From contig NZ_MU255057.1 in NCBI RefSeq assembly GCF_000227725.2, forward strand, positions 3,816 to 54,681: a stretch of 50,866 nt of DNA. Direction: 5' to 3'. The stretch comes from Thiorhodospira sibirica ATCC 700588. GTDB taxonomy: Bacteria > Pseudomonadota > Gammaproteobacteria > Ectothiorhodospirales > Ectothiorhodospiraceae. Of this stretch, positions 5,268 through 41,044 are shown piece by piece; the first letter of the stretch is position 1; each line of letters opens with the position of its first letter. A model generated the notes under the pieces. That model did not search any database. It saw only the letters and a program-made list of their open reading frames with translations, and was not told the origin of the DNA. Made by a program: the position numbers and the translations under genes.

Positions 5268-7244
5268 ATGAATATTGTTTATACCGATGTATTGGTAATC
5301 GGCGGCGGACTTGCCGGTTTGCGCACCGCTGTGGGGGTGAAACGCCGTGGCCATGAGGCGATTGTCTTAAGCCTGATTCCGGCCAAGCGTTCACATTCTG
5401 CAGCCGCTCAGGGGGGGATGCAGGCCAGTCTGGGCAGCAGCACCATGGGCGAGGGCGATAACGAAGACGTGCATTTTGAAGACACCGTGCGCGGCAGCGA
5501 CTGGGGTGCCGATCAGGCGGTGGTGCGCATGTTTGTTAATACCGCGCCCAAGGCCGTGCGCGAGCTGGCCGCCTGGGGCGTGCCGTGGAGTCGGGTGCAG
5601 CAGGGTGAGCGTGAGTCCATCATCAATGCCGAGAAGGTGACCATCCGCGAAAAGGCCGAGGCCCACGGGCTGATTACCGGGCGTGATTTTGGCGGCACGA
5701 AAAAGTGGCGTACCTGCTATACCTCTGATGGCACCGGTCATTCCATGCTCTATGCCCTGGGCGATCAGGCGATTGCCTACGCTATTCCGGTGATAGAGCG
5801 GCAGGAGGCGTTGGCCCTGATTCATGACGGGCAGCGCTGCTATGGCGCGATTGTGCGTGACCTGATCACCGGCGCGTTGACGGCCTACGTTGCCAAGGCC
5901 ACCACCATCGCCACCGGCGGTTATGGGCGGCTGTATGAGGTTTCCACCAGTGCCATCATCTGCGAAGGCATTGGCGCGGCGCTGGCGCTGGAGACCGGCG
6001 TGGCGACGCTGGGCAATATGGAAGCGGTGCAGTTTCATCCCACGGCGATTATCCCCGCCGGTATTCTGACCACGGAGGGCTGTCGTGGTGATGGCGGGCT
6101 GTTGCGCGATGTGGATGGGTATCGCTTCATGCCCGATTATGAGCCGGAAAAGAAAGAGCTGGCCTCGCGTGACGTGGTGTCACGGCGTATGACCGAACAT
6201 ATGCGCAAGGGCAAAGGGGTTAAATCGCGCTACGGCGATCATCTATGGCTGGATATCACCGTGTTGGGCCGGGCGCATATTGAGAAAAACCTGCGCGAAG
6301 TCAAGGAAATCTGTGAATATTTCCTCGGCATTGACCCGGCCACGCAATGGATTCCGGTGCGCCCGACGCAGCATTACACCATGGGCGGGGTACGCACCCA
6401 GCACACCGGCGAAAGCCCTAACCTCAAGGGGCTGTATTCCTGTGGTGAGGCGGCCTGCTGGGATATGCACGGTTTCAATCGCCTGGGGGGCAACTCGGTG
6501 GCCGAGACGGTGGTTTCAGGGATGATTGTCTCGGAATTCATTGCCGATTTCTGTGATTCCCCGGACAGTGAGCTGAATCTCTCCACTGGCCTGATCCGTG
6601 AATTCTATCAGCGCGAAAGCGCCAAGCTGAACACCCTGCTCAACAGCACTGGCAATGAAGATGCCTTTGCCCTGCGTCGGCAGATGGAATCCATCATGAT
6701 GGACAAAGTTGGCATCTTCCGCACCGGGCCGGAATTACAGACCGCCGTGGACGAGCTGCAAGCGTTGCTCACGCGCAGCCGTAACATTGGCCTGCGCTGT
6801 CATGCCAGCGGCGCCAATCCTGAGCTGGTAGCCGCTTACCGTATCCAGAAGATGCTCAAAGTGGCACTGACCGTGGCCTACGGCGCACTGGCGCGTACTG
6901 AAAGCCGGGGCGCACACTCGCGTGAAGACTATCCGCAGCGGGATGATCAAAACTGGCTCAAGCGGACCCTGGCCAGCTGGAAGGATGAAAACGACACCCT
7001 GCCCACGCTCAGCTATGAAGATCTGGACGTGATGAGTATGGAACTGCCGCCAGGCTTTCGTGGCTACGGAGTACGCAACCACATTGATCACCCCGATACC
7101 GAGCGCCGTCAGGCCGAAGTCGAAGCCAGGCGCAAGGAACACAGCGACCGCTTCAGTCTGCAACAGGCCCTGATGCCCTATGAACACCTGCTACCCGAAT
7201 CCTGTCGGGGTAGAAACGAACGCCTTTCGGAGCCCTTGTCGTGA
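5268..7244 (+). CDS. frdA: Fumarate reductase flavoprotein subunit
   Basis: This is the catalytic subunit of 658 residues that interconverts fumarate and succinate with covalently bound FAD. The N-terminal dinucleotide motif is [12 protein letters not shown] (about residues 8-19). [10 protein letters not shown] near residue 42-51 contains the histidine that carries [36 protein letters not shown] (catalytic Arg region), HYTMGGVRT and [13 protein letters not shown] match the substrate- and FAD-binding blocks of the family. The start codon follows AGGAA and begins one base after the frdC stop. The end overlaps the frdB GTG by four bases, indicating translational coupling. No damage is seen. Confidence 0.95.
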
Positions 7245-7996
7245 GTACCGTCAATCCCACTGAAGCCCAGCAGCCGCCGCGCACCCTGAAAATCTCGATT
7301 TTGCGCCACAACCCGCAAGATCCTGCCAGCGTGCCGCACATGCAGACCTTTACGCTGGAAGAAGCCCCGGCCATGACCCTGTTTGTGGCCCTCAATGATC
7401 TGCGTGAACACCAAGACCCCTCGCTGCAATTTGATTTTGTCTGCCGCGCCGGGATTTGCGGCAGTTGCGCGATGGTGATCAACGGGCGTCCTGGGCTGGC
7501 CTGCCGGACCCTGACCCACACCCTGGCGCCGGAGATTACCCTGGCCCCGCTGCCCTTCTTTGAGCTGATTGGCGATTTATCCGTCAATACCGGCAAATGG
7601 ATGCGCAGCATGAGCGAACGCCTGCAAACCTGGATTCACAGCACCGACAGCGTAGACATCAAGCGCCTGGAAGCCCGCATGGAGCCGGAACTGGCCGAGG
7701 CCATTTACGAGCTGGAGCGCTGCATTGAGTGTGGTTGCTGCGTTGCCGCCTGCGGAACGGCGCAGATGCGCGAGGACTTTGTCGGCGCGGTTGGCATGAA
7801 CCGCATCGCCCGCTTCCGTCTGGACCCGCGTGATCAGCGCAGCGATGAGGCTTTTTATGACTTGATCGGCGACGATGATGGCATATTTGGCTGCATGTCA
7901 CTGCTCGGCTGTCAGGATGTCTGCCCGAAAAACCTGCCACTGCAAAGCCAGATTGCCTTCCTGCGCCGCAAGATGGTCAAAGTAGGACTCTCCTGA
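7241..7996 (+). CDS. frdB: Fumarate reductase iron-sulfur subunit
   Basis: This 251-residue protein carries electrons from FrdC hemes to FAD. The ferredoxin domain has [11 protein letters not shown] and a later LACR for the [2Fe-2S] centre (about residues 68-88). [12 protein letters not shown] (about 162-173) supplies the [4Fe-4S] ligands, and [14 protein letters not shown] (about 218-231) supplies the remaining ligands for the [3Fe-4S] and [4Fe-4S] centres. The GTG start overlaps the frdA stop (GTGA). A strong terminator follows 40 bp after the stop, closing the operon. Confidence 0.95.
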
Positions 7997-8035
7997 TCGG
8001 CTGGTCTGTAGAGGCCGTTTTCGGGGTATTTTTGC

Positions 8036-8068
8036 AAAAAGCGACACCTGCAGGGTGTCGCTTTTTTT
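8036..8068 (+). terminator. Intrinsic terminator of frdCAB
   Basis: A perfect inverted repeat (GCGACACC TGCA GGGTGTCGC) is flanked by AAAAA on the left and seven T on the right. It begins 40 bp after the frdB stop. The flanking A and T runs could let it work in both directions. Confidence 0.85.
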
Positions 8069-8087
8069 GTGGCTTTCCTGCGCTGGA

Positions 8088-8115
8088 ATTCCTGTTAAAT
8101 TTATGGACTTTTGAG
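8088..8115 (+). repeat. 28-bp direct repeat, left copy
   Basis: ATTCCTGTTAAATTTATG is followed by GACTTTTGAG here; the copy at 11546-11573 matches at 26 of 28 bases. The right copy ends 7 bp before the start codon of the 103-aa feo-cluster protein. The pair brackets both GGDEF-type genes. Confidence 0.7.
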
Positions 8116-8401
8116 TTTTTTTATTGGTATCGGCTATGGCAGGTTTCACTACGATGTCATTTTATCACTCAACGGGGGCCGAGGTTTTTCGAGGCGCCCT
8201 TATGTATTCCCATTTTGTTGAGCTAATGCCGATAGTTATCAGCTCAGCATTTGAATATAATGCGCTTGCGCTGACCTGACGGTGTTTCCTGCTCGCCAGG
8301 CCTGTCAATCCGGTTTCACAGCGTGGCAGCGCCTATACCTCTGAACCGGTTTAGGTAGATGATGGAACGGATGATGGAATCACAACGACTGAGCCGCCCG
8401 T
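8116..8401. other. Intergenic upstream of broken GGDEF gene
   Basis: No coding frame is convincing. A perfect TATAAT occurs at 8256-8261 without a good -35 partner. The interval probably held the promoter of the broken membrane-PAS gene that follows. Confidence 0.35.
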
Positions 8402-9500
8402 ATGGATATCCCGACACTGTTTCTGATCACCGCATTGACCAACGTCTTATTGGCGGTGGGATGGCGGCCATGGCGGATCGTCCCGAAAACGATGCCATGT
8501 GGCCGTGGGCGCTGGCGGCGCTGGTCAATGCCGGTGGCTATCTGGGTTTTATCTGGCATGCGCACAGCGGCCATCCTGTTTTATTGCTGATCTCGAATCT
8601 GCTGATCGGTGCCTGGCTGGCGCTGGTCGGTGAGGGATTTAAGCGATTTTACGCCCACGCCTGGCCGCGTGGGCTGCTGTGGCTGCCACTACCGATTATG
8701 CTGGTCGGGGTGCTGTTACTGCTGGAAAACTTTCAGGGGCGGGTTGTGGTGGTCGCGCTTATCCTCTCCTGCCAGGTTTTACTGTTGCTGTTTATGGTGT
8801 GGCACCATCGGCAGGAGACGCCAGGGCGTGGATACCTCATCATTATCATCAGTCTGCTGGCTTTGCTAATCCTGCTCAGTATCCGCGCCCTGATGGCATT
8901 TCTGGGGGCGCTGGAAAACATGTCCAGCATCTTCCAAAGCAATGCCCTGCAGGTGTTGACCTTTCAGGCGGGCCTGCTGGCCATGATTTTGCTGGCGCTG
9001 GGTGTGATTGTGCTGACACTGGAACGCACCGAGCAGATTCTCGCCGCCAGCGAACGCCGTTTCCGCATTCTGTTTGAAGCGTCACGCCAACCGCTGACCC
9101 TGATGGATCGTGATGGCTCTTTACGACCGTCAATCCAGCGGCGCTCCGATTATTTCATCTGCAACAACCGCAACAGCTGATCGGTCGGGCATTGAAGGAT
9201 TTTTCGCCCCCGCAGCAACCCGATGGTCAGCCCTCGATGTCATCCGCCGCCGCGATGCGCACACAGACCCTGAGCCAGGGCGGGCATGAATGCGAATGGC
9301 ACTATCTTCTACACACCGATGGACAGACTTTCGATGTGCTGCTGATTCTCACCGCCATCCAGTACGAAGAAGGAGCGCTTTTGCATATCGCCTGGAACGA
9401 CATTACCATTACCCAGCGCAAGGCCACTGAGACCCAGCTGCGCATCAACGAGGAAAAATTCCGCACCTTTGTCGAAGATGCCAATGACCAAAGAGATTAA
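8402..9500 (+). pseudogene. Truncated, frameshifted membrane-PAS sensor (paralogue of next gene)
   Basis: From ATG at 8402 the frame reads MDIPTLFLITALTNVLLA. It shifts at about 8455 into GGMAAMADRPENDAMWPWAL and shifts again at about 9120 (after LTLMDRDGSL) into the frame holding LKDFSPPQQPDG and FVEDAND. It then stops at 9500 just where the paralogue enters its second PAS domain. Seven hydrophobic helices (to about residue 210) and one PAS domain are recognisable; the second PAS and GGDEF are absent. The segment is colinear with residues 1 to about 365 of the intact gene starting 8 bp later. At least two frameshifts plus loss of output make it non-functional as one protein. Confidence 0.8.
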
Positions 9501-9507
9501 GATTTAA

Positions 9508-11451
9508 GTGGATATACCAACACTCTTTCTTATCATCGCGCTGACGAATATCTTGCTAGCCATCGCGATGGCATCAATGGCTGACCGTCCAGGACACCAT
9601 GCCATGTGGTTATGGTCGCTGGCAATGTTGGCCAATGCCTTAGGCTATCTAGGATTTATATGGCAAGGTCAGACAGGGCATCCAACCTTGCTGTTGTTCT
9701 CCAACTCAATGTTAGCCATCTGGCTCATCCTGATCGCTATTGGACTACAAGAGTTTTACAATCGTCGCTGTCAACTGCCACCTTGGGTATTGTGGATTCC
9801 CTTACCGGTCACATTGATCGGCCTCATACCACTGCTGGATAATTTTCAGCAGCGAGTCTTCTTTGCTGCCATCGTCTTGTCATGTCAGGTCGTGCTGCTT
9901 TTGTTGATTGTGCTCCGCAATCGTGGCGACCCTTCAGGTCGAGGTCAGATTATTATTGTGGTAAGCCTGATTGCCGGGCTTTTTCTGCTTGGGTTGCGCA
10001 TGCTGTCAACTGGAATGGGCGGCATGAGCAATACAATCGGCGTTTTACAAAGCAATGCCACGCAAACCATCACCTTTCAGGGCGTTTTGCTTGCCAACAT
10101 CCTGATAGCTCTTGGGCTGATCGTGATGGCTCAGGAACGTGCGGTACAAATCCTCGCCGCCAGCGAGCGTCGCTTTCGCATTCTGTTTGAAGACTCCAAA
10201 CAACCGTTAACGCTGCTGAATCAGGCTGGAGTTTTCACCGCTGCTAATCGATCTGCCTTAGCCTTGTTTCACCTAAGCAGCCCTGAACAACTGATTAATC
10301 GATCATTGACTGATTTTGCACCCTTAATCCAACCGGATGGGCGGCTATCTACCGACCATACCAGAGAAATGCAACAACAAACACTGATGCAGGGAGGCTA
10401 TGAATGTGAATGGCATTGCGTGCGTGCAGACGAGCAGCCGCTTGATGTGTTGCTCATACTAACAGCCATTCAATACGAGCAACAGACGGTGTTACATATC
10501 GCCTGGAGTGATATTACCCGACGCAAGGCGACTGAGGCACAGTTACGCCTCAATGAAGAGAAGTTTCGTAGCTTTGTTGAAGATGCCAATGACATTATCT
10601 ACACTCTAAGTTTAGATGGTTTTTTTCAATACATCTCGCCAAATATTGCAGAAATTTTGGAGTTTTCCCCGGAAGATTTTCTGGGATGTCATTTTGCAAC
10701 CATTGTCCATCCAGATGATTTGCCGCAGTGCCAGATGTTTCTTGAGCGGGTGCTCGCAACCCGCAGCAAGCAAAGCGGCCTGGAGTATCGGGTACAGCAC
10801 AAGACCGCCGGCTGGTGCTGGCATGTCACCAATGCCTCACCGCTGCTCGACAAAGACGGCACTATCATCGGTATGCTGGGGATTGCGCATGACGTGACCG
10901 AACGCAAGCTTAACGAGTCTAAAATCATGCGTATGGCGCATTATGATGGCTTGACCAGCCTGCCTAACCGGGTCTTGCTGTTTGAGCAACTTGAGCCCGC
11001 CATGGCCCATGCCCGACAAAACGGCAGGATGCTCGCCTTGATGTTTCTCGATCTGGACCGTTTCAAACCGATCAATGACACCCACGGTCACGCCGTCGGC
11101 GATCTGGTGTTGCAGCAGGCGGCCCAGCGGCTGCTGGACACAGTGCGTGAAACCGACATGGTGGCACGCATCGGCGGCGATGAGTTTATCGTCATGCTTC
11201 CCGATATCCGGCGCATCCAGCATGCCGTGAATGTGGCAGAAAATATTCGCCAGGCGCTGGAACAACCATTTATTATCAATAGATTAACACTCAGCATATC
11301 CACCAGCATCGGCATCGCCATCTACCCTGAGCATGGAACCGAAAGTGACATCCTGGCGCGCCATGCAGACATCGCCATGTACCACGCCAAACACGGTGGC
11401 GCCAACGGGATCCAGATCTACACGCCGCAACTGGCAACACAACAAGACTGA
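9508..11451 (+). CDS. Membrane PAS-PAS-GGDEF diguanylate cyclase
   Basis: This 647-residue signalling protein is predicted to make cyclic di-GMP. Seven hydrophobic helices occupy about residues 1-210, and PAS domains lie at about 220-345 and 355-470. A GGDEF domain at about 475-640 has the catalytic signature GGDEF at 556-560; no EAL domain follows. The start is GTG at 9508 (MDIPTLFLIIALTNILLA); the weak upstream sequence makes the start uncertain, but the paralogue begins at the equivalent codon. The first two thirds are visibly AT-richer and use different codons from the GGDEF part (from about 10780), which looks like the surrounding genome. That suggests a recombined mosaic. The input signal is unknown. 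Confidence 0.85.
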   Translation: MDIPTLFLIIALTNILLAIAMASMADRPGHHAMWLWSLAMLANALGYLGFIWQGQTGHPTLLLFSNSMLAIWLILIAIGLQEFYNRRCQLPPWVLWIPLPVTLIGLIPLLDNFQQRVFFAAIVLSCQVVLLLLIVLRNRGDPSGRGQIIIVVSLIAGLFLLGLRMLSTGMGGMSNTIGVLQSNATQTITFQGVLLANILIALGLIVMAQERAVQILAASERRFRILFEDSKQPLTLLNQAGVFTAANRSALALFHLSSPEQLINRSLTDFAPLIQPDGRLSTDHTREMQQQTLMQGGYECEWHCVRADEQPLDVLLILTAIQYEQQTVLHIAWSDITRRKATEAQLRLNEEKFRSFVEDANDIIYTLSLDGFFQYISPNIAEILEFSPEDFLGCHFATIVHPDDLPQCQMFLERVLATRSKQSGLEYRVQHKTAGWCWHVTNASPLLDKDGTIIGMLGIAHDVTERKLNESKIMRMAHYDGLTSLPNRVLLFEQLEPAMAHARQNGRMLALMFLDLDRFKPINDTHGHAVGDLVLQQAAQRLLDTVRETDMVARIGGDEFIVMLPDIRRIQHAVNVAENIRQALEQPFIINRLTLSISTSIGIAIYPEHGTESDILARHADIAMYHAKHGGANGIQIYTPQLATQQD

Positions 11452-11499
11452 CCGCATTGATGCGCTCCTGCGTGCTTGATGCTGTGCTGGATCAAAAAA

Positions 11500-11526
11500 G
11501 ATTGATTGTAAACGATTCTCATTTGG
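11500..11526 (+). promoter_or_regulatory. Fur-box-like operator upstream of feo cluster
   Basis: TGATTGTAAACGATTCTCATTT resembles the Fur consensus built from GATAAT hexamers. It shares GATTCTCATTT with the site ahead of feoB at 13081-13091. It lies about 55-80 bp before the first gene of a ferrous-iron cluster, which fits iron repression. Matching was by eye. Confidence 0.55.
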
Positions 11527-11545
11527 TTTATAAATTAGCCAACCG

Positions 11546-11573
11546 ATTCCCGTTAAATTTATGAACTTTTGAG
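11546..11573 (+). repeat. 28-bp direct repeat, right copy
   Basis: This copy matches 8088-8115 at 26 of 28 bases and lies in the leader of the 103-aa gene. See the left copy for the bracketed segment. Confidence 0.7.
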
Positions 11574-11580
11574 ATAAGGT

Positions 11581-11892
11581 ATGAAATTACGTATAGTATT
11601 GATGCTGTCGCTGTTTGGTTTTTCGGCAAGTGCCCTGGCACATACCCCCTCCTTTGCCTGCTATGACAATGCCGATGGTACCGTGCTGTGTGAGGGGGGC
11701 TTTTCCGATGGTTCATCGGCTGCGGGAGTGCCCGTCCGGGTGCTGGATGCGCAGGGCAATGTGTTGCTGGAAGGGCAGCTCAATCCGCTTAGCGAGTTTG
11801 AGTTCGATAAGCCTGAAGGCGAGTACAGCGCTTTGTTTGACGGCGGAGAGGGGCATCGTATCCAGATCCCCGGCAGTCAAATTCTTCCTTAA
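11581..11892 (+). CDS. Small periplasmic protein of the iron cluster
   Basis: This 103-residue protein has a clear signal peptide (MKLRIVLMLSLFGFSASALA, cleavage expected before HTPSF). The mature part is acidic, with two cysteines (about 27 and 37) and a beta-rich pattern (VPVRVLDAQGNVLLEGQL, then FEFDKPEGEYSALFDGGEGH) that looks like a carboxypeptidase-regulatory or transthyretin-like fold. The start is supported by AAGGT just upstream and the signal peptide. It lies downstream of a Fur-like site and 27 bp before the DUF4198 gene, so a role in metal handling at the cell envelope is inferred from context. I do not recognise a named family. Confidence 0.75.
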   Translation: MKLRIVLMLSLFGFSASALAHTPSFACYDNADGTVLCEGGFSDGSSAAGVPVRVLDAQGNVLLEGQLNPLSEFEFDKPEGEYSALFDGGEGHRIQIPGSQILP

Positions 11893-11919
11893 ATTGATAT
11901 TTAAAATCAGGAGCTTATT

Positions 11920-12723
11920 GTGATACGCACGCTGTTTGTCGGTCTTTGTGCAATGGTGGGTCTGACCTTGGCTCATCCGGTACTGGCACATTTTCAACTG
12001 CTCTACACCCCACAACTCAATCACGCCGCCCCGGCCACTTTGCCATTCAAGCTGGTGTTCACCCATCCGGCGGGCAATGGCGCGGTCATGGATATGGCCA
12101 CGCCAGAGCAGTTTTTCGTGGTGCATCAGACGGAGAAAACTGATCTGTTGAGCACCCTCAAGCCCATCACCTGGAATGGTGCGCATAATCAGGGCAAGGC
12201 CTTCGAGGCACAGGTCCCGGTGCGGCGCAATGGCGATTACCTCTTTGCCCTGGTGCCTGCGCCGTACCATGAAGAAGGCGAAGGTTATATCCAGCAATTC
12301 ACCAAAACCATTGTCAATCGCGGCGGCGTTCCTTCAGGCTGGGATGAACCGTTGGGGCTGACGGCGGAAATTGTGCCGCTGACCAAGCCCTATGCGCTGT
12401 ATGCCGGAATGCTGTTCAGCGCCCAGGTACTGTATCAGGGCGAGCCGGTGCCAGGGGCCGAGATTGAGGTGGAGTTTATGAATCATCCGGTGGTCTTAGA
12501 CGCAAACCGTTTAAATCCTCAGGGCATCCTGCAATTTCCCTCGCCGGCCTTTGAGACGTTTGTGACACGGGCCGATGCACAGGGAATTTTCTATTTCACG
12601 GTGCCACATGCCGGTTTTTGGGGATTTGCTGCCGTCGATCTGAGTCCAGAGGGGACCGAGCACAAAGGCGAGCCCTTGCATCATGAGGCAGTGATCTGGG
12701 TGCAGGCCCATGAGCTGCGCTGA
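11920..12723 (+). CDS. DUF4198-type periplasmic protein
   Basis: This 267-residue protein starts at GTG 11920, preceded by CAGGAGCTT. A signal peptide is present (MIRTLFVGLCAMVGLTLAHPVLA), followed by HFQLLYTP. Histidine-containing beta segments and the late block (AQGIFYFTVPHAGFWGFAAVD) fit the DUF4198 family, whose members are periplasmic and often sit beside metal-uptake genes. The final 14 bases overlap the feoA start, so the two are probably translated together. A metal-binding or delivery role for Fe(II) or another divalent cation is inference from context. Confidence 0.8.
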   Translation: MIRTLFVGLCAMVGLTLAHPVLAHFQLLYTPQLNHAAPATLPFKLVFTHPAGNGAVMDMATPEQFFVVHQTEKTDLLSTLKPITWNGAHNQGKAFEAQVPVRRNGDYLFALVPAPYHEEGEGYIQQFTKTIVNRGGVPSGWDEPLGLTAEIVPLTKPYALYAGMLFSAQVLYQGEPVPGAEIEVEFMNHPVVLDANRLNPQGILQFPSPAFETFVTRADAQGIFYFTVPHAGFWGFAAVDLSPEGTEHKGEPLHHEAVIWVQAHELR

Positions 12724-13006
12724 GTACACTCTGGATCGTGTGCCGCAAGGACACCCGTGTCGCATTGTGCGCCTTACCGCCCAAGGCGCGGTGCGCCAGC
12801 GCCTGCTGGATATGGGCTTATTACCCAGTGCACAGGTGGAGATGGTGCGGATGGCCCCGCTGGGCGATCCGCTGGAGCTGCGGGTGGGGGAGCGCGACAG
12901 CTTTATCGCGATCCGCCGCCAGGAGGCCAGCTACATTCATGTCTGCCTGTGCAGCGAAGCCGCTCTGGTGACAGAAAACCTCGCCATGTCCAGCGCCTCT
13001 CCTTGA
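12710..13006 (+). CDS. feoA: Ferrous iron transport protein A
   Basis: This 98-residue SH3-like protein works with FeoB in Fe(II) uptake. The FeoA pattern is clear: CRIVRLTAQGAVRQRLLDMG, then VEMVRMAPLGDPLELRVGE and FIAIRRQEASYIHV. The ATG at 12710 lies inside the end of the upstream gene. A terminator follows directly, so feoB is probably expressed mainly from its own promoter. Confidence 0.92.
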   Translation: MSCAEYTLDRVPQGHPCRIVRLTAQGAVRQRLLDMGLLPSAQVEMVRMAPLGDPLELRVGERDSFIAIRRQEASYIHVCLCSEAALVTENLAMSSASP

Positions 13007-13026
13007 TTGATGAGGCTATAAAGAAG

Positions 13027-13064
13027 GAGCGACAAGCCCCTAAGCAGGCCTGTCGCTCTTTTTT
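13027..13064 (+). terminator. Intrinsic terminator between feoA and feoB
   Basis: GAGCGACA and TGTCGCTC form an 8-bp stem around a 16-base loop, followed by six T. It starts 21 bp after the feoA stop. Confidence 0.8.
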
Positions 13065-13075
13065 AATGACAAAAT

Positions 13076-13098
13076 AGCTATTGATTCTCATTTTACGA
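13076..13098 (+). promoter_or_regulatory. Fur-box-like operator before feoB
   Basis: TATTGATTCTCATTTTACG lies 35-57 bp before the feoB start and shares GATTCTCATTT with the site at 11514-11524. Together with the terminator upstream it suggests that feoB has a separate iron-regulated promoter. Confidence 0.5.
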
Positions 13099-13132
13099 TG
13101 TATTTACTCTCCCAACGCTAAGCAAAATCTCC

Positions 13133-15625
13133 ATGAGCGCTCCTGATGCCCCCGCCATTGCCCTGATTGGCCAGCCCAACTGCGGTAAATCGACCCTATT
13201 CAATGAATTAACCGGCTTAAGCCAGCATATTGCCAATTATCCGGGGGTCACGGTCGAGAAAAAGACTGGCTATCTGAAATTGGCCACGCAGCGCCTGCCC
13301 CTGGTGGATTTACCCGGAACCTACAGCCTGACGGCGTTCTCACCGGAGGAACGAGTGGTGCGCCAGTATCTGCTAAATTCGCCGCCGCGCTTGAGCGTCA
13401 ATGTGCTGGATGCCTCACAGTTGCGCCGCTCCTTGTCGCTGACCTTGCAGGTGCTGGAGATGGGGCTGCCGCTGGTGTGTGTGCTCAATATGAGTGATGT
13501 GGCGCGCCGCCATCAGCAGGCCGTGGATGCCAGGCGCCTGGCCGAATTACTGGGTGTGTCGGTGGTCGAGACGGTGGGGCGACGCGGCGAGGGGCTGGAG
13601 CAGCTCAAGCAGTGCATGGCACACACCCTGCAACAGGGACACACCGAGGCACCATACCTGCCCGATTATGGCCCGCTGGAAGCGGCTATCCGCACCATAC
13701 AACAGGCCCTGCCCGCACAGATGGCCTCGCGTTGGCGGGTGCTGCGTTTGCTGGAAGGCGATCAGGAATTGCAAACGCAGCTGCACAGCCAGCTTAAGGA
13801 GGCTGCCGCGCCGCTGCTGGCGGAGATCAAACAACAGGCCACCGCGTTCACCGCACAGCAGGGCATCAGCGTGGGAGATCACATCATCATTCAGCGCGAC
13901 CGCCATGCCCGCGAGATTGAGGCCGCCTGCATCGCCTCGGCCCGGCCGCCCAAGGTGTCGTTTTCTGAGCGGGTGGATCGGGTCCTGTTACATCGTGCCA
14001 TTGCGCCGGTGGTATTGCTGGCGACCGTGTATCTGATTTATTACGCCTCCATTGTGCAAGGCTATGAGCTGACCCACTACACCTGGCCGCTACTGTCGGG
14101 CATTCGCAACCAGCTGGCCGAATGGCTCCCTGCCGCCGGATTTTTATATGACCCTCTAAGCCGCTCTTTTAGCCTGTGGCTGGTCGATAGCGTCAACACC
14201 CTGCTCAATTATGTGCCGATCTTTCTGATTTTATTTGCGCTGATTGCGATTCTGGAAGATTCCGGCTACATGGCGCGCATTGCTTTTATTCTGGACCGTA
14301 TCCTGCACCGTTTCGGCCTGCACGGACAATCAACCCTGCCCTTTATTCTGGGCGGTGTATTTGCCGGAGGCTGTGCCGTGCCCGGCGTGATGGCCACCCG
14401 CGCCATTCCCGACCCCCGGGCGCGCCTGGCCACCATTCTCACCGTGCCGTATATGAATTGCCTGGCCAAGGTGCCGCTGTATACCCTGCTCATCAGCATC
14501 TTCTTTGTCGAGCACAAGGCCCTGATGATGTTTTTTATCGCCACCATTACCGTGATGGTGGCCCTGCTGGTAGCACGCCTGCTCACCTTTTCCATCTTGC
14601 GTCCGCTGGAAACCGTGCCCTTTGTCATGGAGATGCCGCGCTATCATCTGCCCACCGTGCAAGGCGTGGTACGCCGTTCGCTGGAGCGCACCTGGCTGTA
14701 TGTCAAAAAAGTGGGAACGGTGGTGCTGGCGGTGGCGGTGGTGATTTTTGTATTACTGAACCTGCCCGGTCTGTCAGCAGACGAACGCGCCGCCTTTGAA
14801 CAACGCGCCAACAGCGCCTTACAGACCTTTTATGCCGAAATTGCAGACAATCCGCATGCCGCCCGGTTTCAGGATGCCGACTACCTGCTCACCGCGCTCA
14901 ATCTTGCCGCGCAATACCGTGCCCGTCGCATGAATCTGCAAAATGCCGAGGCGATTGCCGCCCTGGATCAGCGTTTTCAAAGTCGCTACCCCGAATATTT
15001 TGCATTCATTCGCCCCGGCGGCGGAGATCGGGACGTGCGGGCTATGCAACGTAGCCTGCGCACCCTGGATCAGGAACGGCGCATGGTGCGTCTGGAAATG
15101 CAGGAAACCCGCATTGTCAACAGCCTGCTGGGGCGTGTTGGCCGGGCCCTGGAGCCGGTAACGCAGGCGGCCGGTTTTGACTGGAAGATTAACGTCGCCT
15201 TGCTCAGCTCCTTTGCCGCCCGAGAAAGCTCGGTAGCCACGCTGGGGGTCTTGTTCCAGGCCGAAGAAGGCAGCAGTCAGACCCTGGAGCAACGGATGGG
15301 GGGAGCCATGCAACATGCTGATGCTGCGCTGGTGGCGCTATCCCTGATCATCTTTTTCGCCCTGTACCCCCCCTGTCTGGCCACTGCCATCATGGTGCGC
15401 ATCCAGACGGCCTCCACCGGCTGGATGGTTTTTTCGGTGATCTTCCCGACCGTGCTGGGCCTGCTGGTGGCCAGCGCCATCTATACCACCGGCGTCCATT
15501 TTGCCCTGGATGCGGTGCAGATGATGATGGCCTTCTGGCTGCTCACCCTGGCGCTGCTGTTGATCATCGGACTCTGGCCCACGCCCCGCCCAAGGCCGCC
15601 CGTTGAACCGACACACGCCCACTGA
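13133..15625 (+). CDS. feoB: Ferrous iron transporter FeoB
   Basis: This is an inner-membrane Fe(II) permease with an N-terminal GTPase, 830 residues. G1 is GQPNCGKST (13-21), G3 is DLPGTYSL (about 59-66) and G4 is NMSD (about 121). The helical GDI-like segment follows to about 270. The membrane domain has the two FeoB gate-type blocks (GGVFAGGCAVPGVMATRAIP and SFAARESSVATLGVLF). Between them, at about residues 545-655, lies a hydrophilic helical segment of roughly 110 residues not present in E. coli FeoB, explaining the extra length over 773. Frame and termini are intact. A terminator and a Fur-like site precede it, and a Cys-rich partner gene follows 15 bp after. Confidence 0.95.
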   Translation: MSAPDAPAIALIGQPNCGKSTLFNELTGLSQHIANYPGVTVEKKTGYLKLATQRLPLVDLPGTYSLTAFSPEERVVRQYLLNSPPRLSVNVLDASQLRRSLSLTLQVLEMGLPLVCVLNMSDVARRHQQAVDARRLAELLGVSVVETVGRRGEGLEQLKQCMAHTLQQGHTEAPYLPDYGPLEAAIRTIQQALPAQMASRWRVLRLLEGDQELQTQLHSQLKEAAAPLLAEIKQQATAFTAQQGISVGDHIIIQRDRHAREIEAACIASARPPKVSFSERVDRVLLHRAIAPVVLLATVYLIYYASIVQGYELTHYTWPLLSGIRNQLAEWLPAAGFLYDPLSRSFSLWLVDSVNTLLNYVPIFLILFALIAILEDSGYMARIAFILDRILHRFGLHGQSTLPFILGGVFAGGCAVPGVMATRAIPDPRARLATILTVPYMNCLAKVPLYTLLISIFFVEHKALMMFFIATITVMVALLVARLLTFSILRPLETVPFVMEMPRYHLPTVQGVVRRSLERTWLYVKKVGTVVLAVAVVIFVLLNLPGLSADERAAFEQRANSALQTFYAEIADNPHAARFQDADYLLTALNLAAQYRARRMNLQNAEAIAALDQRFQSRYPEYFAFIRPGGGDRDVRAMQRSLRTLDQERRMVRLEMQETRIVNSLLGRVGRALEPVTQAAGFDWKINVALLSSFAARESSVATLGVLFQAEEGSSQTLEQRMGGAMQHADAALVALSLIIFFALYPPCLATAIMVRIQTASTGWMVFSVIFPTVLGLLVASAIYTTGVHFALDAVQMMMAFWLLTLALLLIIGLWPTPRPRPPVEPTHAH

Positions 15626-39389: not shown

Positions 39390-39694
39390 GGTCAACTACC
39401 CCGCCCTAAAGGGCGGAGCTTGCCTGCCTGCCGCGACGCAGGCAGGTGAAAGCAAGCTCGGTTGACCAGGGCAAGCGGTGCAAACCCGCTACGTGCATCA
39501 CAGGTCGTTAAGACCCACTCCGGGATGCTTCCTCAGTCCCGGACTCTGGAAGGTTGGGATCATGCTGGCGAAAGGTAAAACGCCGAAGGTTTTAGCCGCC
39601 GCGCAAGCGGGAGCCGGTGATGCACATGCCCGAGGGGAGCGAGCCGCAAGGTTTCGTCACTAGGCCCGTAAGGGTATTGATATGGGAGAATACG
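39390..39694 (+). ncRNA. IscB-associated omega RNA (HEARO-like)
   Basis: About 300 bases of non-coding, strongly paired sequence precede iscB. GGTCAAC (39390-39396) pairs with GTTGACC (39461-39467), enclosing CCGCCC-TAAA-GGGCGG, GAGCTTGC with GCAAGCTC (39452-39459), and CCTGCCTGC with GCAGGCAGG. Further stems include CCGGGA/TCCCGG around 39523-39543. The last part (GTGATGCACATGCCCGAGGG through GTCACTAGGCCC) resembles the conserved 3' portion of IscB guide RNAs. In this family the guide is the flanking sequence 5' of the scaffold, which here is the smc 3' end and its first downstream bases. Confidence 0.75.
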
Positions 39695-41044
39695 ATGGCC
39701 GTGTTTGTTTTAGATAAAAAGCAGCAACCGCTGATGCCCTGCTCAGAAAAGCGGGCGCGCTTGCTCTTACAGCGCAATCGTGCCGTGGTAGTGCGGTTGC
39801 ATCCCTTCACCATCCGCCTAAAAGACCGCATCGGCGGGACGGCGCAACCCCTGCGCTTGCAGCTTGATCCGGGTAGCAAAACGACCGGCCTGGCGTTGGT
39901 GCGTGAAGTAGAAAATATAGACCCTGATACCGGCGAAGTGCGCAGCGAAGCAGTCGTGCTTTGGTTGGGTGAACTTACCCATCGCGGCGCTGCCATCCGT
40001 GACGCATTGACCGCACGCCGTGCCATACGCCGTAACCGCCGCAATCGCAAAACCCGCTATCGTGCGCCGCGGTTCCTTAATCGCGCTAAACCTAAAGGCT
40101 GGCTACCACCTAGCTTGCGGCATCGCCTGGAGACAACACTGAGTTGGGTAAAACGCCTGCAACGGCTGGCACCGCTCACCTGCATCCGTCAAGAGCTGGT
40201 GCGCTTCGATACTCAAGCCATGCAAACACCGGAAATCAGCGGGGTTGAGTATCAGCAAGGTGAACTGGCTGGTTATGAACTACGCGAATATCTGTTGGAG
40301 AAATGGCATCGCACCTGCGCTTATTGTGGTGCAAAAGATGTCCCGCTGGAAATTGAACACATTATCCCGCGCAGCAAAGGCGGATCAGATCGTGTTAGCA
40401 ATCTCACGCTGGCTTGCACCCACTGTAATCAACAGAAAGGCAATCAAGACATTGATGTCTATCTTAAAGATAGGCCGTCAGTGCTGCGCCGCATTCAGAC
40501 CCATGTCAAAACCCCGTTGCAAGATGCCGCTGCCGTCAATGCCACTCGCTGGGCGTTGTTCAATCATCTCAAAGCAACGGGCTTACCCGTAACTACCGGA
40601 TCGGGCGGGCGCACCAAATACAACCGCCGCCGCCTAGAGATACCCAAAACCCATGCACTGGATGCTGCCTGCGTGGGTGAAATAGACGCGCTCCATGGCT
40701 GGAACAGACCCGCGTTGGCTATCAAAGCCACCGGGCGCGGCAGCTATCAACGCACCCTGCTCTCCCGCTTTGGCTTCCCGCGTGGCTACCTGACCCGCCA
40801 GAAACGCATTAAAGGGTTTCAGACGGGGGATCGTGTCATTGCCCAGGTTGCGACGGGCAAAAAGGCAGGAACCCATAGCGGGCGCGTCGCGGTACGCGCA
40901 TCAGGAAGTTTCAATATCCAGACCGCGCACGGCGTGGTTCAGGGTATTTCCCACCGCCATTGTCGTGTGGTGCAGCGCGCTGACGGCTATGGTTACACCT
41001 TTCAACCTCAACCCAAAACGGAGGAAGCGAGACGGGCGGCTTAA
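39695..41044 (+). CDS. iscB: IscB RNA-guided nuclease
   Basis: This is a 449-residue ancestor-type relative of Cas9 that cuts DNA with an omega RNA. The N-terminal PLMP domain contains QQPLMPCSEKRARLLL. RuvC-I is LQLDPGSKTTGLAL with Asp58, and the Arg-rich bridge helix covers about 109-130. RuvC-II has Glu167 (IRQELVRFD). The inserted HNH domain covers about 205-252, with Cys208/211/241/244, His222 in EIEHIIPRSKGGSDRVSNL, Asn236 and His243. RuvC-III is THALDAACVG with His320 and Asp323. A C-terminal target-adjacent-motif domain follows. All catalytic residues are present. ATG 39695 follows GGGAGAA; an upstream in-frame ATG (39617) would lie inside the omega RNA. Confidence 0.93.
   Translation: MAVFVLDKKQQPLMPCSEKRARLLLQRNRAVVVRLHPFTIRLKDRIGGTAQPLRLQLDPGSKTTGLALVREVENIDPDTGEVRSEAVVLWLGELTHRGAAIRDALTARRAIRRNRRNRKTRYRAPRFLNRAKPKGWLPPSLRHRLETTLSWVKRLQRLAPLTCIRQELVRFDTQAMQTPEISGVEYQQGELAGYELREYLLEKWHRTCAYCGAKDVPLEIEHIIPRSKGGSDRVSNLTLACTHCNQQKGNQDIDVYLKDRPSVLRRIQTHVKTPLQDAAAVNATRWALFNHLKATGLPVTTGSGGRTKYNRRRLEIPKTHALDAACVGEIDALHGWNRPALAIKATGRGSYQRTLLSRFGFPRGYLTRQKRIKGFQTGDRVIAQVATGKKAGTHSGRVAVRASGSFNIQTAHGVVQGISHRHCRVVQRADGYGYTFQPQPKTEEARRAA

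Follow-up and report, generated by a model that had tools for sequence, protein, structure and literature searches.

A putative mosaic origin for a membrane-PAS-PAS-GGDEF gene and the broken copy beside it in Thiorhodospira sibirica

The window, a stretch of 50,866 nucleotides of the Thiorhodospira sibirica genome, contains a gene that may have been assembled from two homologues. Its most probable history, to which we assign a probability of about 0.6, is that the 5' piece of an incoming homologue split the gene occupying the locus. The intact gene, I, would then be a chimera, and the broken copy upstream of it, P, would be the old 5' half of the occupant. The pieces are ordered in such a way that two like ones, P and the C-terminal part of I (I-C), flank an unlike one, the N-terminal part of I (I-N). 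This relation, in which the outer two pieces are alike and the inner one is different, is independent of which part is native.

The two copies, their surroundings and their orthologues

Gene I (9508-11451, plus strand) is an uninterrupted open reading frame of 647 amino acids with a GTG start. It encodes a membrane-PAS-PAS-GGDEF protein, in which Pfam places PAS_9 at residues 235-337 (PAS1), PAS and PAS_4 at residues 352-463 and 358-467 (PAS2), and GGDEF (PF00990, E = 1.1e-49) at residues 477-633. The membrane region was judged by eye, as no Pfam family is found there. The GGDEF motif itself, residues 556-560, is invariant with two orthologues. An RxxD inhibitory site is located five residues before GGDEF, and in I this is R547-E-T-D550, followed by MVARI and then by GGDEF; R547 and D550 are invariant across the three sequences compared. 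With both the GGDEF signature and the RxxD site kept, I is expected to encode an active, feedback-inhibited diguanylate cyclase. A structure prediction of I from three sequences had a mean pLDDT of 46 and a pTM of 0.29, and was not used as evidence.

The frameshifted 5' copy, P, occupies 8402-9488 on the same strand and is a pseudogene comprising the membrane region and PAS1 (residues 1-362). It begins with an ATG at 8402 and has two one-base gaps, near 8459 and 9117, relative to I and the orthologues; after the frames are joined it contains no in-frame stop. A tblastn search with I recovers P in three frames, with 54%, 63% and 75% identity (E = 6e-103), and the overall protein identity is 59.5%. 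An identity this low, although P has only two frameshifts, rules out a recent internal tandem duplication. P stops at the position of I residue 362 (VEDAND), where PAS2 has only just begun, and nucleotide alignment finds no trace of its own 3' part past 9488. A predicted open reading frame of 273 amino acids (8359-9180, plus strand) runs through P, its upstream ATG restoring the frame over the membrane region.

Gene I starts 19 bp after the end of P. This junction (9489-9507, plus strand), of which 4 of 19 bases are G or C, cannot be matched convincingly to I or the orthologues in nucleotide alignments and is interpreted as the left edge of the insertion, putatively the leader of the donor gene. 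Allowing up to three mismatches, the stretch 9481-9508 occurs once in the genome. A consensus scan of 7950-11620 found no plus-strand promoter-like site in front of P or in the gap separating it from the GTG of I; the site nearest to the start of I begins at 9509, inside the gene. Such matches are close to the chance level, with 6 found and 4.2 expected in the scanned interval.

The P-I block is flanked on the left by frdB (7241-7996) and on the right by a series of genes (11581-15625) for a 103-aa protein, a DUF4198 protein, FeoA and FeoB. The DUF4198 assignment comes from Pfam, and the frd and feo names are those which we take the sequences to indicate. Elsewhere in the window, a 475-aa open reading frame (39617-41044) may be an IscB-kind RNA-guided nuclease, judging by eye. 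The genome is 3.20 Mb in 5 contigs, and a search of the genus matched this genome alone.

A 28-bp direct repeat brackets the block. Its left copy (8088-8115) is identical in 26 of 28 positions to the right copy (11546-11573), both on the plus strand, and the right copy adjoins the 5' side of the genes at 11581-15625. With up to three mismatches allowed, the 22-bp core is found twice in the genome, both times exactly and at this locus (a reversed control pattern is found once), and the repeat is absent, at up to seven substitutions, from the stretches of four relatives. Because of the repeat, insertion of the whole block with a 28-bp target duplication was considered. In three relatives a stretch that, judging by eye, resembles a Fur box lies upstream of the gene for the 103-aa protein, and the window has a weaker similar one to the right of the P-I block; such a model would place this stretch inside the insert. 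Insertion by a transposon or IS element was rejected, there being no suitable terminal inverted repeats and no transposase in sight. Among inverted repeats no more than 60 bp apart, the interval 7990-11600 has one 13-bp hairpin (8036-8066). The seven far inverted pairs in 6500-13500 are imperfect (71-86%) and none of them frames the insert. No IS-like product was recognized by eye among the open reading frames of at least 80 amino acids in 6500-13500.

Full-length relatives of I occur in three genomes, which all belong to a single further genus of this family: Ectothiorhodospira lacustris (L016), E. magna (L017) and a third Ectothiorhodospira genome, G008 (L097). They are colinear with I and 67-69% identical to it. 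The E. lacustris orthologue has the same length as I, 647 residues, and is colinear with it also across codon 404, as would be expected if the right junction were homologous. Each of the three genomes has one intact copy. The neighborhood of the gene in E. lacustris (L016:4244-9519) and E. magna (L017:2408-11406) differs from that of I. There the orthologue lies between two genes which we take to be cobyric acid synthase-like, together, in E. magna, with a gene for a 1235-aa sensor-kinase-like protein; the genome of the window has one match to the cobyric acid synthase-like gene. The 103-aa/DUF4198/FeoA/FeoB series is present in the three orthologue genomes and in a fourth (G013), and no orthologue of I was found near it in the stretches read from these four genomes.

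A few side observations concern this protein family. Upstream of the 103-aa/DUF4198/feoAB genes of E. lacustris and G008 (L114 and L115), at 1.7 kb and 2.4 kb, respectively, the opposite strand encodes a distant PAS-GGDEF relative with 27% identity over 444-447 residues. In a more distant relative (G035, L127), which lacks PAS1, PAS2 follows immediately on the membrane region. Of five genes compared between E. lacustris and E. magna, the PAS-GGDEF gene is the most divergent, its product having 75.8% identity versus 88.3%, 96.3%, 96.6% (over 176 residues only) and 84.4% for four neighboring genes.

Base composition and synonymous codons

The two copies differ in base composition. The G+C content and third-position G+C content (GC3) are 0.570 and 0.690 in P, 0.494 and 0.524 in codons 1-361 of I, and 0.563 and 0.684 in codons 401-647 of I. 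Along I, GC3 is 0.524 in codons 1-361, falls to 0.30 in codons 362-404 and rises to 0.695 in codons 405-647. In a two-segment model the best changepoint lies after codon 404, with a likelihood ratio (LRT) of 24.2 and a support interval of codons 397-417 (10698-10758, plus strand), around the HPDDLP of PAS2. It divides the gene into codons 1-404 (9508-10719), which contain the membrane region, PAS1 and the first half of PAS2 and have a GC3 of 0.50, and codons 405-647 (10720-11448), which contain the second half of PAS2 and the GGDEF domain. None of 2000 shuffles reached this LRT (p = 0.0005). The step is also larger than in all 61 background open reading frames of at least 400 amino acids (maximum 14.6), taken from the window and from ten 20-kb stretches of the genome. 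The three orthologues have no significant step (LRT 4.2, 1.7 and 5.8), with GC3 values of 0.72-0.86 across eight compared segments and of 0.68-0.88 in windows of 60 codons.

At codon 361, where P ends, the LRT is 8.4 versus 24.2 at codon 404, and 13 of the 43 codons in 362-404 end in G or C versus 34 of the 43 in 405-447 (p = 1e-5). The switch does not match any domain boundary. The AT-richest stretch of I is codons 353-404, with a second changepoint at codon 352, so the putative insert is not uniform in composition; the contrast nevertheless survives the omission of these codons (187/352 versus 169/243, p = 6e-5). Furthermore, at the 200 codons where P and I have the same amino acid, G or C is in the third position of P only in 55 and of I only in 25 (p = 0.001). 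In composition the N-terminal part deviates only moderately from the genome and is still inside the genome's range: codons 1-361 are at the 5.2nd percentile (96 segments), and codons 1-404 at the 2.6th percentile of the background (76 segments).

A first-pass annotation of this DNA had described a broken and an intact copy in tandem, and the analysis bears out both copies at 8402-9488 and 9508-11451. The broken copy is GC-rich (GC3 of 0.690), as had been noted, and it stops at the second PAS domain, its end at residue 362 falling in the start of PAS2. An AT-rich front followed by a genome-like end had also been reported for I. The gene is indeed not uniform, its GC3 changing from 0.50 to 0.695, but the step lies in the middle of PAS2, near codon 404, and not at the GGDEF domain.

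Synonymous codon choice provides a measure from which composition is removed. Identical codons at shared amino acids were counted and compared with a shuffle within each amino acid, for I-N (codons 1-361), I-C (codons 405-647) and P. I-N has no significant excess with any of the three orthologues or with P (p = 0.085-0.142 overall, 0.10-0.14 for the orthologues). An excess was found with all three orthologues both for I-C (p ≤ 0.036) and for P (p ≤ 0.007). The mean excess, with the block-jackknife error in parentheses, is 0.050 (0.037) for I-N, 0.168 (0.039) for I-C and 0.146 (0.047) for P. The difference between I-C and I-N has a z of 2.2-2.4, that between P and I-N a z of 1.6, and that between I-C and P a z of 0.36. 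At sites where P and I-N differ, the orthologues match P more often, for synonymous codons in three of three comparisons (p = 0.017-0.04) and for amino acids with p values of 0.017, 0.047 and 0.31. Judged by GC3 and synonymous signal, P and I-C thus look like a single lineage that is distinct from I-N, although the significance is modest.

The test was calibrated on five genes that were assumed to be vertically inherited, namely the DUF4198 gene and four which are presumably purL, smc, murJ and feoB. Between this genome and Ectothiorhodospira they gave values of 0.069-0.116. Half-overlapping segments of these genes had a mean of 0.079 and a maximum of 0.125 at 400 codons (n = 13), and a mean of 0.066 and a maximum of 0.127 at 243 codons (n = 26). 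For the two short neighbors the values were 0.008 (103-aa gene) and 0.045 (feoA). The signal of I-N (0.050) is thus ordinary relative to genes assumed vertical, and P and I-C are above all calibration segments tested, 26 of 26 at 243 codons and 13 of 13 at 400 codons. That P and I-C are more Ectothiorhodospira-like than the vertical genes points to an acquisition of the occupant and not of the insert; the former occupant may have entered from an Ectothiorhodospira-like source once the genera had separated.

How the locus may have formed

According to the preferred reading, the locus would first have held one membrane-PAS-PAS-GGDEF diguanylate cyclase gene. The incoming DNA would have carried the 5' end of a divergent homologue, consisting of a leader of about 19 bp and codons 1 to about 404. 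Its right end would have recombined by homology and in register within the PAS2 coding region, in codons ~397-417 around HPDDLP, and its left end would have been joined without homology after occupant residue 362. About 1.23 kb (9489-10719) would have been spliced in and about 42 occupant codons (about 363-404) lost, so that the occupant was split. Its 5' half, P, would have stayed upstream, decaying, and its 3' half would continue an in-frame chimera, in which a membrane region, PAS1 and half of PAS2 of incoming origin lead into the old half of PAS2 and the GGDEF domain. One homologous and one illegitimate junction are the signature of homology-facilitated illegitimate recombination, which we infer to be the likely mechanism at this locus.

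Recombination of an incoming homologue into a resident gene had been proposed in the first-pass annotation. Partial insertion is indeed the simplest account, and P and I-C agree in GC3 and in synonymous codons. The labels 'resident' and 'foreign' are less secure. Base composition is what would make the insert the arrival from another species and the occupant native; the calibration suggests that the occupant itself may have been acquired. If a foreign 5' part now drives the resident GGDEF output, half of PAS2 would have been replaced too, the junction being inside this domain. The chimera may receive an altered signal input with an unchanged c-di-GMP output.

A longer route would lead to the same present structure. 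Two full-length homologues could have stood in tandem, either by an old duplication or because a whole foreign gene was inserted beside the resident one. Gene conversion from the upstream copy would then have overwritten the 3' part of the downstream copy, before the upstream copy lost its own 3' part. The 59.5% identity of I and P suits an old pair, and the likeness of P and I-C would follow from the conversion. However, three events (duplication or insertion, conversion and deletion) are required where one suffices, and the 3' part of P has left no trace past 9488. We consider this route unlikely.

Amino acid sequences alone show no mosaic. The ratio of the distance between I and the orthologues to the distance among the orthologues is 1.29 in the N-terminal part and 1.26 in the C-terminal part, so relative divergence is alike in both; the ratio for P is 1.10. 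Trees built from residues 1-361, 1-220 and 405-647 of the proteins give I no resolved position. Discordant phylogenies of the two parts, which had been predicted, thus find no support, although trees of five or six sequences cannot refute them either. These results would suit an I that is not mosaic at all, its composition step being due to regional drift or local selection and P being a separate remnant of a decayed Ectothiorhodospira-like homologue. The synonymous signal of I-N, equal to that of genes assumed vertical, and an N-terminal composition within the genome's range would agree with this. On the other hand, none of the 61 background open reading frames has a step as sharp as that at codon 404, which also lacks a counterpart in the three orthologues and is off any domain boundary. 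The shared synonymous codons of I-C and I-N also differ (z of 2.2-2.4). A non-mosaic I is therefore rated as rather improbable, below the tandem route.

Several searches were made for a donor of the 5' part of I. In the family, 5 of 47 genomes matched, one being the own genome, and none was a donor. In the class, the only match among 369 genomes, drawn from a larger group, was the own genome. A peptide-pattern scan of GTDB contigs, with one genome for each of 84,980 species, gave no donor among the best 80 of 204 relatives, two of which reach residue 1. Eight plasmid records were found, all with less than 60% identity and none with 80% coverage. Across the family, class, GTDB (best 80 of 204) and plasmid searches, nothing is nearer than Ectothiorhodospira.

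A broader and improbable proposal is that displacement of the sensor end recurs in this gene family. Divergent 5' halves would be swapped onto the standing GGDEF half by one-sided recombination in PAS2, leaving 5' stubs, and the P stub, open over the membrane region (8359-9180), would perhaps pair with the chimera and modulate it. Campbell-type integration of a circular molecule carrying the 5' part of a homologue, by one crossover near codon 404 and with later deletion of the intervening vector and the duplicated 3' part, yields the order of P, insert and C terminus, and a circular intermediate appears in the passages of PMC2935791 on Rhs C-terminal displacement, but it is very improbable here, since P stops at residue 362, which leaves about 40 codons up to the right junction and calls for a second deletion, and since the stretch joining P to I is only 19 bp with no vector remnant.

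Relation to known systems

If the preferred reading is true, the locus is a visible intermediate of sensor replacement, in which an incoming sensor half, the kept output half and the old sensor half are adjacent. It would suggest that the input of second-messenger enzymes, too, is rewired by one-sided recombination of the kind proposed for toxin and effector loci. Furthermore, 5' stubs upstream of chimeric genes would provide a search handle for such events. A single case, it remains a modest finding, and the locus would be a tidy example of an already known kind of gene remodelling.

Enzymes of cyclic di-GMP metabolism change by domain swapping and truncation with the GGDEF output kept, as set out in the relevant passages of PMC10333796. 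A case cited there is a PAS-GGDEF protein that went from cytoplasmic to membrane-associated through a deletion, whereas in I a homologous 5' part appears to have replaced another. Literature searches found no described case of a mosaic GGDEF gene with a recombined N-terminal sensory domain and an accompanying pseudogene, and no case of N-terminal displacement by horizontal gene transfer in bacteria.

Homology-facilitated illegitimate recombination, in the passages of PMC3240628 and PMC5361080 that describe it, has one homologous and one non-homologous junction, results in a net gain of foreign DNA and is known from three naturally competent species and from E. coli conjugation. The P-I locus likewise has one junction in homologous sequence, in register. 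Unlike in those studies, the event here is deduced from the sequence alone. A mechanism akin to it has been proposed, in the part of PMC5361080 on Vibrio cholerae, for the displacement of type VI secretion (T6SS) effectors, which leaves orphan immunity genes; the process described there displaces gene pairs, whereas half of one gene would have been displaced at the P-I locus.

The nearest described analog is the C-terminal displacement of Rhs proteins. As presented in the passages of PMC2935791 on this process, an incoming segment recombines in the common part of the gene, the displaced end stays beside the intact gene, and the parts have distinct GC signatures. The P-I locus does not show the Rhs arrangement, in which displaced C-terminal tips follow an intact rhs gene; it has no toxin and no immunity gene, contains a single remnant and encodes a PAS-GGDEF protein. 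Judged against those passages, the P-I locus would be the mirror image of an Rhs locus, with the old 5' sensor half left upstream of the intact gene.
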